Position numbers and translations under genes: made by a program. Under the pieces are notes generated by a model. It worked only from the letters and a program-made list of their open reading frames with translations, was not told the origin of the DNA and did no database searches. From Streptomyces sp. NBC_01217 (GTDB lineage: Bacteria > Actinomycetota > Actinomycetes > Streptomycetales > Streptomycetaceae), in contig NZ_CP108538.1 of the NCBI RefSeq assembly GCF_035994185.1, forward strand, positions 4,255,501 to 4,319,500: a stretch of DNA of 64,000 bases, given 5' to 3'. Below, one piece after another: positions 2,594 through 26,212 of this stretch; positions within the stretch are counted from its first letter, which is position 1; each line of letters starts with the position of its first letter.

Positions 2594-3942
2594 GACTGCT
2601 CCGCCTGTTCCGCCTGAGCCTTGCGCGGCTCGTGCGACTCGCCCGTGGTGTCGGCGGGCTGGACGGGGATGAACGCGGTGATCTCGTAACCGCCCTCCTC
2701 CGTCGCCTCGGCCGTCATGTCGCCGCCCAGCATCGCGACCCTCTCCCGCATCCCCGTGATCCCGTGACCGGCCCCCTGCGAGGGCTTCACCGGAGCGGTG
2801 GGCGGCCCGTTGACCACCCGCAGACCGAGACCGCCCAGCACATAGCCGATCTCCACCTTGGCGTCGGCGCCCGGCGCGTGCCGCAGCGTGTTGCTGAGGG
2901 CTTCCTGAATGATCCGGTACGCCGACAGCTCGACGCCCTGCGGCAGTTCACGTACCGCGCCGGTGACCGTCTTCTCCGTCTCCAGGCCCGCCTCGCGCAC
3001 ATTGGCGAGGAGCCCGTCGAGCTGGGCGAGGGTGGGCTGCGGGGCGTCCGGCGCCTGGTAGTCCTCGGCCCGTACGACGCCGAGGACCCGGCGCAGTTCG
3101 GTGAGTGCGGCGACCGCGTTCTCCCGGATCGTGACGAAGGCCTGCTCCAGCTCGGGCGGCGGGTTCTCCACCCGGTACGGGGCGGCCTCGGCCTGGATCG
3201 CGACGACCGACATGTGGTGGGCGACCACGTCGTGCAGTTCGCGGGCGATGGTGGTGCGCTCCTCCAGCAGCGTGCGCCGGTCGCGTTCGACGGCGGTCAC
3301 GGTGCGCTGCACGGTCACCTCGCGCTCCGCCTCCCGGCGGGTCTGCACGACGGTCACCACGAGCAGGGCGAACGCGGAGGTCACGGCCATGGGCCCGGTG
3401 GTCGACGAGTAGTGCCAGCCGAAATTCTCCAGGAAGGTGCCGAGCACCAGGGTCAGGACCCACATCCAGGCGGCGGTACGCGGCCGGGTCCGGGCCGCGA
3501 CCACGACGAGCACCACCAGGTGCGAGAGCAACATGCTCGGCACCCACGGCCAGTCGCCGCCGGTGACCACGGCTGTCACCGGAGTGAGCGCCATCGACAT
3601 CCAGAACGCGCCGACCGGCCGGACCAGCGTCATCCCGACGGTCAGCGCCGGGAGCAGCCCGGTCACGATGATCTCGATCCCGGACCCGATCCCGGAACTG
3701 TTCGTTGTGCCGATGCCTATGAGGAACGTGATCAGTGCGGCAAAACCGACCAGCGCGTGCGGCGTCCATGCGGCCCGCGCGCGCATCCGCTCGGACAGCC
3801 GCCGGGTCAGCGCCCCGTCGGTCCGCATGGGCGCCAGCGGACGGTAGGCGAACGCATCGTGGAAGAGGTCCTGCCGCAGGCCGCCTACCGCCCCTGCGGC
3901 CAGCCGGAACTCGGGGCTTCTGGTCCTGTTGGTCTCGGTCAC
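2590..3942 (-). CDS. two-component sensor histidine kinase (HisKA_3 type)
   Basis: The N-terminal third contains four to five membrane helices. A HisKA_3 dimerisation/phospho-acceptor motif follows (ARELHDVVAHHMSVV), and then a HATPase_c domain with the N-box (IIQEALSNTLRHA) and a glycine-rich lid (GAGHGITGMRERV). The partner is the response regulator encoded just downstream with a 4-bp overlap. The start is uncertain: GTG at 3942 is chosen because it opens with a typical soluble N-terminus, but a GTG at 3969 and an ATG near 3831 are also possible. The signal sensed is unknown. Confidence 0.9.
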   Translation of the reverse strand: MTETNRTRSPEFRLAAGAVGGLRQDLFHDAFAYRPLAPMRTDGALTRRLSERMRARAAWTPHALVGFAALITFLIGIGTTNSSGIGSGIEIIVTGLLPALTVGMTLVRPVGAFWMSMALTPVTAVVTGGDWPWVPSMLLSHLVVLVVVAARTRPRTAAWMWVLTLVLGTFLENFGWHYSSTTGPMAVTSAFALLVVTVVQTRREAEREVTVQRTVTAVERDRRTLLEERTTIARELHDVVAHHMSVVAIQAEAAPYRVENPPPELEQAFVTIRENAVAALTELRRVLGVVRAEDYQAPDAPQPTLAQLDGLLANVREAGLETEKTVTGAVRELPQGVELSAYRIIQEALSNTLRHAPGADAKVEIGYVLGGLGLRVVNGPPTAPVKPSQGAGHGITGMRERVAMLGGDMTAEATEEGGYEITAFIPVQPADTTGESHEPRKAQAEQAEQS

Positions 3943-23931: not shown

Positions 23932-24336
23932 ATGGCAGTCGACGTGACGAATCCCAGCCCCGAGTACCTCGCGTTCTGGCGCGAATACCACCTGTGCACC
24001 CTGACCACACCCCGCTCCGACGGCACACCGCACGTGGTGCCGGTGGGCGTGACGTACGACCCCGGGGCCGGGCTCGCCCGCATCATCACCAACAAGAACA
24101 GCCGGAAGGTCGCCAACATCCTGGCCGCGGGCCCGGACGGCGCCCGGGTCGCCGTCTGTCAGGTCGACCGGGGCCGCTGGGCGACGCTGGAGGGCCTCGC
24201 GACGGTACGCACGGAGCCGGACGTGGTCGCCGACGCGGTGAGCCGCTACGCGCAGCGTTACGAACGCACGCCGGCGCCCAACCCGGACCGCGTCGTCATC
24301 GAGATCACCCTGGACCGGGCGCTCGGCAGGGCGTGA
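23932..24336 (+). CDS. split-barrel flavin/F420-dependent oxidoreductase family protein
   Basis: A 134-aa pyridoxamine-5'-phosphate-oxidase-like (FDOR) protein. It shows the typical opening EYLAFWREYHLCTLTTPRSDGTPHVVPVG, the core RIITNKNSRKVANI and the C-terminal RVVIEITLDRALG. Actinobacterial proteins of this short type usually bind F420 or FMN and have no defined substrate. It is divergent from clpB, so the 226-bp intergenic region with the HAIR site may also carry its promoter. A bidirectional terminator follows. Confidence 0.82.
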   Translation: MAVDVTNPSPEYLAFWREYHLCTLTTPRSDGTPHVVPVGVTYDPGAGLARIITNKNSRKVANILAAGPDGARVAVCQVDRGRWATLEGLATVRTEPDVVADAVSRYAQRYERTPAPNPDRVVIEITLDRALGRA

Positions 24337-24440: not shown

Positions 24441-24761
24441 TCAGGCACTGCGGGGGGTGGCGGAAATGGTCTCTGGCTCGAACAGCTGGTGGTCCCGCCG
24501 GTCGAGGTTCACAAAAATCATGTCGTACCGAATCGCGCAGCGGACGGGCTGCGGAGCTCCACGCGGCTTGCGGAGACAGCGGTACGCACGCACTTCGTCG
24601 TCTTCTTCACGTGCGACAACGATGGGGTCGCCGAACAGGGTGACCATCAGCGAGTCGCCACAGCGGGGGACGGCCGTGACGAGATCGATGAAATGCCAGC
24701 CTGATCGGTAGGCCGTAGCCATCTCCCGCCGGAAGGTCCGGTCGTCCGGCGGGATGGTCAT
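24441..24761 (-). CDS. Rieske-oxygenase-like N-terminal domain protein lacking iron-sulfur ligands
   Basis: A 106-aa protein not assigned to a named family. Its opening (YRSGWHFIDLVTAVP), then GDSLMVTLFGDPIVVAREEDDEVRAYRC and the later YDMIFVNLD match in order the N-terminal region of Rieske ring-hydroxylating oxygenase alpha subunits. The two-cysteine, two-histidine cluster-binding loops are absent. The first CxH is replaced by CLRKPRG, and the segment normally holding CxxH is missing, so PVRC is followed directly by the final strand. It therefore probably cannot bind a [2Fe-2S] cluster. Its start overlaps the stop of the GDIAWS-repeat gene (ATGA), so the two are translationally coupled. No catalytic domain follows. 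Confidence 0.65.
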   Translation of the reverse strand: MTIPPDDRTFRREMATAYRSGWHFIDLVTAVPRCGDSLMVTLFGDPIVVAREEDDEVRAYRCLRKPRGAPQPVRCAIRYDMIFVNLDRRDHQLFEPETISATPRSA

Positions 24762-25096
24762 GCGCCCTGGTTGATCGGTTCGGACCAGGCGATGTCACCG
24801 GGCCCGGCTGCCGCCTCGACGCTCCACGCGATGTCACCCGGCACAGCGGTCCCGGTGGACCATGCGATGTCACCCGGTGCCGATGCCTGGACGGACCACG
24901 CGATGTCACCCGGCGCGGACGCCCGAGTGGACCACGCGATGTCACCTGGTGCCGACGCCTGAGTGGACCAGGCAATGTCACCCGGCGAGGGTGCCGCCCC
25001 GCCGCTCCAGGCAATGTCGCCGCCGCTCAGCACCCCGAGTCCCAGGGCCGCGACGAACGAGGCGGCAAGCGCCGAGCGAAGCATTCGCTTATACAT
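24758..25096 (-). CDS. secreted/anchored GDIAWS-repeat small protein
   Basis: A 112-aa protein. A signal-like N-terminus (MYKRMLRS followed by AALGLGVLSG) is followed at once by seven copies of GDIAWS spaced 12-13 residues apart. Spacers are rich in Ala, Pro, Thr and Ser (STQASAP, STRASAP, SVQASAP). The repeats fill the rest of the protein up to SEPINQGA. It is shown from the ATG at 25096; an in-frame GTG at 25114 preceded by GAGAAG is an alternative. Strictly repeated short peptides after a leader are seen in multi-core precursor peptides and in structural or signalling peptides. I know of no described family with this motif. It is divergent from the LuxR regulator and overlaps the downstream Rieske-like gene. 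Confidence 0.7.
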   Translation of the reverse strand: MYKRMLRSALAASFVAALGLGVLSGGDIAWSGGAAPSPGDIAWSTQASAPGDIAWSTRASAPGDIAWSVQASAPGDIAWSTGTAVPGDIAWSVEAAAGPGDIAWSEPINQGA

Positions 25097-25189
25097 AGTC
25101 GGCTTCGTCCTCACTTGTGGATTCTTCTCCCCCGCACCTAAGACGATGTCTCACCTGGGCACACGAACACCACTGAGTCGATGCATCAT

Positions 25190-25209
25190 GTTCCTGAATG
25201 TTCAGGAAC
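25190..25209. promoter_or_regulatory. 20-bp palindrome, candidate operator for the adjacent LuxR regulator
   Basis: The sequence GTTCCTGAATGTTCAGGAAC is a perfect 9-bp inverted repeat with a 2-bp centre, 16 bp upstream of the regulator's ATG. It lies in the short divergent region between the regulator and the GDIAWS gene. Its position fits autoregulation and control of the divergent operon, but binding is inferred. Confidence 0.55.
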
Positions 25210-25225
25210 CTGGGGGGTGGAGAAT

Positions 25226-26212
25226 ATGGTCACAAGCGATACAAAGCCGACACATCCTCATGGGATCACCGAACTATGCGAAGCGGGAGGCCGCCTCTAC
25301 GCCAGCGCTCTGCGCTCGGGACGCATCGCCCGCAGCGAGGTGGAACCGGCGCCCTGCCTGATGGATTTCGCCCTGCTGCACCCCGACCCCGACGACCCCG
25401 ACTGGCTGCGTCCCGTACCGCCGTCCGCCGCACTGGCGAAGCGCCTGCATCCCATAGAACGCGAGATCCAGGAGCGCCGACTGCATTCGGTCCTGCTGGC
25501 CGAGTCCTTCGAGCCGTTCATGGACATCAGCGCCCAGGACCCGCCGACCACTCACGCCATCACCGTGCTGGAGGGCGTCAACCGGATCAACGCGGCACTG
25601 GATCTCGCCACGGCAGAGTGCCGCACGGAAGTCCTCACCGTCCAGCCCGGCGGCGGCCGCAGCGAGGACCGCCTCAGCGAAGCCCTGGAACGGGGCCTCT
25701 CCGTGGTGGATCGCGGTGTCAGCATCCGCACTCTCTATCAGCACACCGTACGGCACAGCCCCGGCACCCTGGCCTACGCGGAGCGGATGTCCGACGAGAG
25801 CGTGGAGATCCGGACGCTCGAGGAGCTCATCGAACGGCTCATCATCTTCGACCGCACTGTCGCGTTCATCCCCGCCCAGGACGACCGCCAAGTCGCCCTG
25901 GAGCTGCGCCATCCCGGACTGGTCGAGTATCTCGTCAAGGTGTTCGAGCAGCTCTGGACCCGTGCGGCCCCGCTCCTGGAAGAGGTCAAGTACGACCCGA
26001 CCCCCAAGGGGATCAGCGGTGTGCAGCGCTCCATCGCCCAACTCCTCGTGGAAGGACATGTCGACGACTCGATCGCCCGCCGTCTCGGCATGAACGTCCG
26101 CACCTGCCGCGCGCACGTCGCCAAGCTGTCCGCCGTTCTCGGCAGCAACAGCCGGGCCCAACTCGGCTATCTGATAGCCAGGTCGGGGATCCTGGAACAG
26201 GACCCGGGCTGA
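25226..26212 (+). CDS. helix-turn-helix transcriptional regulator (LuxR C-terminal, TrmB/PLD-like N-terminal region)
   Basis: A 328-aa regulator. The middle part (residues about 120-215) resembles the TrmB-like effector region, with AALDLATAECRTEVLTVQPGG and later IIFDRTVAFIP. The C-terminal LuxR/GerE helix-turn-helix includes HVDDSIARRLGMNVRTCRAHV. It has no receiver domain. The ATG at 25226 has GGTGGAG just upstream; the in-frame ATG at 25181 would place the palindrome inside the coding sequence and is less likely. It is divergent from the GDIAWS-repeat/Rieske-like operon, which is its most likely target. Confidence 0.8.
   Translation: MVTSDTKPTHPHGITELCEAGGRLYASALRSGRIARSEVEPAPCLMDFALLHPDPDDPDWLRPVPPSAALAKRLHPIEREIQERRLHSVLLAESFEPFMDISAQDPPTTHAITVLEGVNRINAALDLATAECRTEVLTVQPGGGRSEDRLSEALERGLSVVDRGVSIRTLYQHTVRHSPGTLAYAERMSDESVEIRTLEELIERLIIFDRTVAFIPAQDDRQVALELRHPGLVEYLVKVFEQLWTRAAPLLEEVKYDPTPKGISGVQRSIAQLLVEGHVDDSIARRLGMNVRTCRAHVAKLSAVLGSNSRAQLGYLIARSGILEQDPG

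Follow-up and report, generated by a model that had tools for sequence, protein, structure and literature searches.

The 64,000-nucleotide stretch of Streptomyces sp. NBC_01217 analysed here (NZ_CP108538.1, positions 4,255,501 to 4,319,500 of the forward strand; hereafter the window) carries a compact unit of three genes, encoding a peptide precursor with seven GDIAWS copies, a small Rieske-like protein and a divergently transcribed LuxR-type regulator. The precursor gene (24758..25114, minus strand; stop codon at 24758-24760) can be read from an ATG at 25096, giving 112 amino acids, or from a conserved GTG at 25114, giving 118 amino acids that begin with VRTKP. Its leader (25022..25096, minus strand) joins a basic n-region, MYKRMLRS, to a hydrophobic segment and, judged from sequence and hydropathy only, could be an export signal or a membrane anchor. 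All seven GDIAWS copies that a preliminary description of this DNA had placed behind a signal-like leader were found (24782..25021, minus strand), separated by spacers rich in Ala, Pro and Ser, and Tandem Repeats Finder delimits a 36/72-bp tandem array at 24812-24987. The repeat gene overlaps by an exact ATGA (24758-24761) with the gene for the Rieske-like protein (24441..24761, minus strand; 106 amino acids), and the divergent LuxR-type gene occupies 25226-26212 on the plus strand. Between the divergent genes lies a perfect 20-bp inverted repeat (25190-25209), a conserved candidate operator 16 bp before the LuxR start codon.

The LuxR regulator, the proposed receptor of the peptide, consists of 328 amino acids and combines a putative helix-turn-helix (HTH) domain of the LuxR type with a sensor domain (residues about 108-253) that matches the PLD/TrmB fold (2f5t, 3qph, 5box). 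The closest Pfam profiles of the sensor, DUF7436 (27.4 bits, cut-off 34.2) and TbsP_N (15 bits, cut-off 27.1), both score below their cut-offs, and no TPR family appeared among the Pfam matches up to E 1. Rieske clusters are held by two Cys and two His in the ligand motifs CxH and CxxH. The 106-amino-acid protein matches the N-termini of Rieske oxygenases weakly (best E 6e-6; Pfam Rieske score 13.8 bits, below the cut-off of 20.3), its predicted model resembles the same enzymes (best Foldseek E 3e-4), and in a 28-row alignment Cys62 is missing in two rows and Cys75 is invariant, while invariant Arg64 and Arg78 stand where the two ligand His are expected, the placing of the second motif being an interpretation. 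The earlier reading of this protein as a Rieske-type N-terminal region without iron-sulfur ligands stands.

Conservation of the unit and uniformity of the repeats

A peptide scan of species genomes returned 60 loci, all from Streptomyces, and a peptide search of the genus matched 63 of 199 genomes, some of them weakly; both undercount because the repeat diverges. The Rieske-like profile matches 232 of the 293 genomes of the order at E 1e-3, and among the matches listed 223 are strong, all in the window's genus, and nine are weak (E >1e-10), one of these in another genus. We read 230 loci: the window, the 60 from the peptide scan, 29 of 30 from the genus search (L062-L090) and 140 (L111-L250) taken from the best-scoring Rieske-like matches listed, by the place of that gene only. 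The peptide gene, the Rieske-like gene and the divergent LuxR gene share the same arrangement in all 230 loci (210 of them distinct), peptide and LuxR being present also in every one of the 140 units picked by the Rieske-like gene. Among the matches listed in both searches, 23 of 28 Streptomyces genomes carry the Rieske-like gene together with a LuxR orthologue (E <1e-160); the other five (G088, G223, G225, G228 and G229) have neither: the Rieske-like profile has no match in them, and the LuxR proteins they do have are only distantly related (E 6e-37 to 6e-58). The preliminary description had proposed that the three genes form one unit, an idea it would have given up had the repeat frame lacked conservation or purifying selection or had the genes failed to co-occur; the genes do co-occur, and the repeat frame is conserved and, as described below, under purifying selection.

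Precursor length ranges from 57 to 167 amino acids over the 210 distinct genes. The leader is conserved across loci (its pattern is present in 228 of 230), and a [DEN]xxW motif occurs in 230 of 230. At the nucleotide level, over 4000 random pairs, the proportion of synonymous differences (pS) is 0.19 in the leader (25060-25114 in the window) and 0.48 in the Rieske-like gene; given this low synonymous divergence, a DNA or RNA signal may overlap the leader. The Rieske-like gene is itself under purifying selection, with a ratio of nonsynonymous to synonymous differences (pN/pS) of 0.20.

The intergenic DNA that separates the divergent genes shows strong conservation. The sequence TCCTGN6CAGGA upstream of LuxR is exact in 144 of 210 distinct units and has at most one mismatch in 174, and shuffling each unit once left none of the 210 with one mismatch or fewer, never better than two. 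The location of the site just before the LuxR start suggests that LuxR controls its own expression. A search of the strain's own genome found five perfect sites and none in the reversed control: the window site, one about 330 bp past the end of a gene for a small DSSWGG protein described below, and three without an evident link.

Genus-wide, the repeat reduces to [D/E/N]-x-x-W, with 732 copies spread over the 210 genes and from one to 11 in each (one copy in 22 genes, two in 65). We defined copies by the Trp and by D/E/N at position -3 relative to it, so that the two inner residues, -2 and -1, lay outside the definition. Between species we counted 37 motif types, among them DIAW, DIGW, EISW, DITW, EPSW, DPVW, DLGW, DSGW, DTGW, DSTW, DTVW and NSSW; within a gene the copies are uniform in 176 of 188 multi-copy genes. 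Copy pairs within a gene are identical in 1317 of 1345 cases, compared with 5.8% between genes (permutations: mean 7.8%, maximum 9.9%), and agreement at the positions flanking the motif is only 26-61%; neither the copy pairs within a gene nor the genes of related species count as independent observations. The uniformity is not simply a trace of recent DNA duplication, because the motif DNA differs in 807 of the 1345 pairs and the differences are synonymous, with codon differences between copies of 365 synonymous to 1 nonsynonymous at position -2 and 560 to 28 at position -1. These codon comparisons demonstrate, at the level of sequence, selection on the protein that keeps the copies identical; a joint change of all copies could possibly proceed by loss and re-amplification or by gene conversion. 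In some two-copy precursors (L163, L178, L187) the copies lie at both ends, one after the hydrophobic segment and one at the extreme C-terminus, and in 29 of 210 genes a single residue follows the last Trp.

Co-change of the peptide motif with LuxR

We built a tree from the LuxR and Rieske-like proteins and tested alignment columns for changes on the same branches as the motif, using as a control the neighbouring PPOX-type F420 oxidoreductase gene (23932-24336; NCBIfam TIGR03618 above cut-off), which faces the unit on the opposite strand. LuxR position 136 stands out for motif position -2, and LuxR positions 153 and 129 for position -1; in the window these are Val136 (codon 25631..25633, plus strand), paired with Ile at -2, and Ala153 (codon 25682..25684, plus strand), paired with Ala at -1. 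The PPOX protein shows no co-change with the motif, none of its 87 columns exceeding z 3 in any of three tests.

The pairings at position -2 are nearly categorical: Ser goes with Met136 (74/74), Ile with Val (60/60), Thr with Val (32/32), Pro with Leu (18/18) and Phe with Ala (3/3), and Met136 occurs with no -2 residue other than Ser. Leu at -2 is accompanied by Val in 12 units, Ala in four and Ile in one, and Val by Val in five and Ile in one. Broadly, a larger peptide residue goes with a smaller receptor residue, as would be expected for direct contact. At position -1, Gly is never paired with Gly153 (0/73), Thr and His always are (26/26 and 3/3), Ala goes with Ala153 in 24 of 27 units, and Ser is mixed (Gly 32, Ala 19, Ser 1).

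Mapped on the LuxR and Rieske-like tree, 16 of 21 changes at position 136 coincide with changes at -2 (0/100,000 simulations), 12 of these 16 being Ser/Thr with Met/Val switches, and 12 of 22 changes at position 153 coincide with changes at -1 (0/100,000). This result speaks against mere co-transfer of linked genes, since single columns behave unlike the rest. The link at 136 persists on a PPOX nucleotide tree of 198 units (37/41; 0/20,000) and that at 153 on a 59-taxon clpB tree (16/19; 0/20,000), gene trees being noisy and parsimony crude. Among genome-disjoint pairs with LuxR identity of at least 75%, 35 of the 45 that differ at -2 also differ at 136, including, by hand count, all 28 Ser/Thr pairs. 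We conclude from these sequences that peptide and LuxR co-change. The dedicated regulator of the preliminary description is indeed paired with the peptide in every locus read, but its role needs revision: beyond regulating the peptide, LuxR most likely serves as its receptor.

The Rieske-like protein behaves differently, showing essentially no co-change with the motif (1 of 40 columns above z 3 in one test). Because it does not follow the motif code, it probably does not touch the variable peptide residues; with a conserved helix and an ATPRSA end that hardly varies, it looks like a constant partner, perhaps of LuxR. It resembles the N-terminal domain of Rieske oxygenases in fold and in weak sequence similarity, and differs from it in the absent ligand His, a size of about 106 amino acids and the lack of a catalytic domain.

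Relatives and genomic setting

At E 1e-10, 40 of the 114 genera in the class have LuxR relatives, and at E 1e-20 so do 57 of 59 genomes of one other genus (that of G599). In 34 of 34 loci examined (L286-L319; 33 from that genus and one from a genus of the same family), a small secreted-looking protein of 39-91 amino acids with DxxW behind a hydrophobic start is encoded convergently towards the LuxR gene, both the hydrophobic start and a [DEN]xxW motif having been conditions of the search itself. In 31 of these 34 precursors a motif is preceded, at a distance of at most three residues, by a loose cleavage-type site; 26 carry a single motif copy, and the others two to four (for example DITWG three times or DTSW four times). 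Many of the loci L292-L319 also encode, on the minus strand at about 2870-3600, a small membrane-like protein adjoining the peptide gene and sharing a YRLAP...AR..G or QARLLGA start. The Rieske-like gene was not found in this genus: its profile hits 15 of the 59 genomes at E 1e-3, the best at E 4e-8, and the matches listed are pieces of frames of 403-729 amino acids that stop at profile position 69 or before, for which reasons we regard them as ordinary Rieske oxygenases. Because these related pairs gave no sign of it, the Rieske-like partner looks like a Streptomyces addition and may play an accessory part in that version, such as that of an unvarying partner of peptide or receptor in the cytoplasm.

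Applied without any fitting, the Ser-Met rule holds in seven of seven further cases, six from the other genus, several of which share the form DSSWGC, and one from a Streptomyces paralogue (L285); among 36 tabulated pairs outside the main unit, Met136 is found with no residue but Ser. Position 136 ranks second of 218 columns for association with -2 in the other-genus set (z 7.1, uncorrected for relatedness). Thr at -2 is scattered there over Leu (14), Ala (3), Ile (2), Thr (1) and Val (1), so the Thr-Val rule of Streptomyces does not carry over.

Further afield, an unplanned negative came from thirty loci of a further family (L320-L349), none of which showed an AxA-DxxW peptide; there are two possible candidates, L340:2442-2625 and L327:947-1118, small secreted-looking proteins with NTWP or NLGW beside distant LuxR relatives. 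In L350 (G220:C7:228000-236500), L352-L354 and L356-L358, three to five related LuxR genes stand in tandem at the same place and differ at position 136; they are possible receptors for peptides of other species. In the strain's own genome, the LuxR paralogues L252-L257 have no clear DxxW peptide within 1.5 kb (hydropathy and W filter). A second small secreted-looking protein with DSSWGG near its end is encoded there (L365:7011-7274, minus strand) and in L285; in L285 its gene is divergent from a Met136 LuxR, and the strain's own copy has such a LuxR (L253) at a distance of about 3 kb. A LuxR-like piece beside the own-genome DSSWGG gene did not align as a complete receptor.

The unit and the PPOX gene sit between clpB and hspR-dnaJ-grpE-dnaK, heat-shock genes named from their translations. 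In 60 of 60 loci clpB flanks the unit on one side and the PPOX gene is kept beside it, and hspR lies on the other side in 49 of 60 (within the 5 kb read). Among the immediate neighbours in the window (PPOX, clpB, hspR and dnaJ) there is no modifying enzyme or transporter and, the chaperone clpB aside, no protease, as had been described.

In Streptomyces coelicolor, SCO3665 encodes a LuxR protein of 327 amino acids, and two LuxR genes, of 327 and 394 amino acids, carry neighbouring numbers within SCO3664-SCO3666, according to the accessible part of PMC3282765; by size and number SCO3665 might, at a guess, be the LuxR orthologue. Insertions in the regulator gene SCO3664, which may or may not belong to the unit, are among those that raise actinorhodin more than 50-fold in the portion available of PMC6585502. 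Neither the repeat nor the peptide-LuxR pair was found described in open-access full texts, whose coverage is incomplete and leaves absence from print unproven, and the available parts of PMC13118837 and PMC13136126 mention neither.

A candidate peptide pheromone system and its known counterparts

The reading that we favour, and regard as likely, is that the unit is a multi-copy peptide pheromone system whose product is exported, cut, re-imported and read by a LuxR receptor of the TrmB/PLD fold. The precursor would leave the cell by its N-terminal signal, and proteases would cut from it multiple copies of a single short [D/E/N]xxW peptide (here all or part of GDIAWS), which an oligopeptide transporter would take up again. 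Inside, the peptide would bind the TrmB-like sensor domain of the divergent LuxR, and the occupied regulator would change its activity at the intergenic palindrome and at other targets. The two inner residues would serve as a species-specific address, read by LuxR positions 136 (for -2) and 153 (for -1), among others, such that each species answers mainly its own peptide type. Several identical copies would yield more signal per precursor and, as all of them must fit one receptor, the copies would stay equal while the type drifts between species. Export we infer from the leader alone, and direct binding, cutting, import, the promoter effect and the downstream targets are likewise predictions of the model.

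Several observations weigh against this reading. With the exception of the chaperone gene clpB, no protease adjoins the unit within the window; no regulon was found, the genome holding only the five perfect sites; the GDIAWS leader has no AxA site, and a loose small-residue site at most three residues before the first motif is present in 156 of 210 genes. Motifs are mixed in 12 of 188 multi-copy genes, and the constancy of D/E/N and W is partly by construction, because both defined the copies. Besides 136 and 153, further LuxR columns exceed z 3 (4-7% of 209), and PPOX is an imperfect control, its mean z being negative when measured on the LuxR tree. Position 136 alone does not discriminate all types, because Val serves Ile, Thr, most Leu and most Val, and the size rule at -1 has exceptions (Val goes with Ala153 in 8 of 17 units and with Gly in 9, and Ala153 also accompanies three of four Arg and both Lys units). 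The 153 link is not significant on the PPOX tree (1060/20,000) or among the top columns in the other genus, and that of 136, with only seven changes, is not significant on the clpB tree (1905/20,000). Finally, the Rieske-like gene has no explained role in a peptide-signal model.

It is conceivable, though in our judgement unlikely, that the precursor is no intercellular signal and instead stays in the cell or membrane, where the motif-rich tail would hold LuxR, acting on it as multivalent anchor or anti-activator. Co-change pairs LuxR with the motif and says nothing on where the two meet, several copies would suit multivalent tethering, and the leader could be an uncleaved membrane helix; but the basic residues precede the hydrophobic segment, which by the positive-inside rule places the tail outside, and species-specific diversification would not be expected of such an anchor. 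In the other genus, moreover, the cleavage-type site before the motif in 31 of 34 precursors and the single copy in 26 of 34, too few for multivalence, argue against it. The heat-shock setting, with clpB at all 60 loci and hspR at 49, would fit an improbable alternative in which the peptide tells LuxR of stress in secretion or proteolysis, a task for which a species-specific code is unneeded.

The preliminary description had noted that identical short repeats behind a leader occur in multi-core precursor peptides, and a further alternative makes the repeat gene the multi-core precursor of a ribosomally synthesized and post-translationally modified peptide with a pathway regulator. A leader followed by identical cores and spacers has that appearance, but no modifying enzyme or transporter stands among the immediate neighbours in the window and such cores predict no residue-by-residue co-change with a regulator; we consider this frame very improbable and not the best one. 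That the repeat is a tandem array without selected function, as the 36/72-bp periodicity of the window copy might suggest, we give practically no credence, since the same residues are written in different codons with synonymous excesses of 365:1 and 560:28.

Beyond the single locus, the pheromone reading leads to a wider proposition, which we hold to be probable, if with some reserve: Streptomyces would share, across the genus, a ribosomal pheromone system in which 37 or more pherotypes follow a residue-to-residue code. The system would be one member of a broader actinobacterial class that pairs DxxW peptides with LuxR receptors of the TrmB/PLD fold, a second, TPR-independent way of reading imported peptides, with receptor arrays in some species perhaps listening to others. 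Actinobacterial signals have been described as enzyme-made small molecules (available part of PMC10075063) and as gamma-butyrolactones and cyclic or modified peptides (available part of PMC4748050). If the proposition is true, most of Streptomyces also carries a plain peptide language built around one tryptophan, its specificity rule decoded; development and antibiotic control could be approached through it, many unexplained actinobacterial LuxR proteins would gain a role, a natural set of orthogonal peptide-receptor pairs would be at hand, and the use of imported peptides by Streptomyces could be tested directly with synthetic peptides.

Known systems share parts of this design. The yeast alpha-factor precursor carries, behind its signal sequence, a tandem series of identical pheromone copies set apart by spacers, a layout like the present one; it is eukaryotic and acts on a membrane receptor, which leaves an analogy only. 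The TrmB family of archaeal sugar-responsive regulators has the PLD-fold effector domain in common with the LuxR sensor, but LuxR carries a putative DNA-binding domain of the LuxR type at the C-terminus and its ligand would be a peptide. In the PlcR-PapR pair of the RRNPP systems, PapR pherotypes differ between species, and the short, variable DxxW peptide likewise changes its type from one species to the next. In S. coelicolor, BldK imports an oligopeptide, a 655-Da signal (accessible part of PMC9640686); by analogy, this small imported peptide of Streptomyces development indicates a possible import route for the DxxW peptide. As in RRNPP systems, and PlcR-PapR in particular, a small exported propeptide would be encoded beside a one-component intracellular regulator of 250-500 amino acids (accessible part of PMC10075063). 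The same source gives five marks of RRNPP systems, namely a propeptide of 10-100 amino acids, a Sec signal, a receptor of 250-500 amino acids, TPR repeats and adjacent genes. Here the receptor has 328 amino acids, its gene adjoins that of the propeptide in 230 of 230 loci, and the propeptide measures 112-118 amino acids in the window, 57-167 in the 210 genes and 39-91 in the other-genus family; TPR repeats are replaced by the PLD/TrmB fold. The unit would thus operate in the manner of RRNPP quorum sensing while standing outside that group, its receptor joining a TrmB-like sensor to a putative C-terminal LuxR-type HTH domain, its precursors holding up to 11 copies and its hosts being Actinobacteria.
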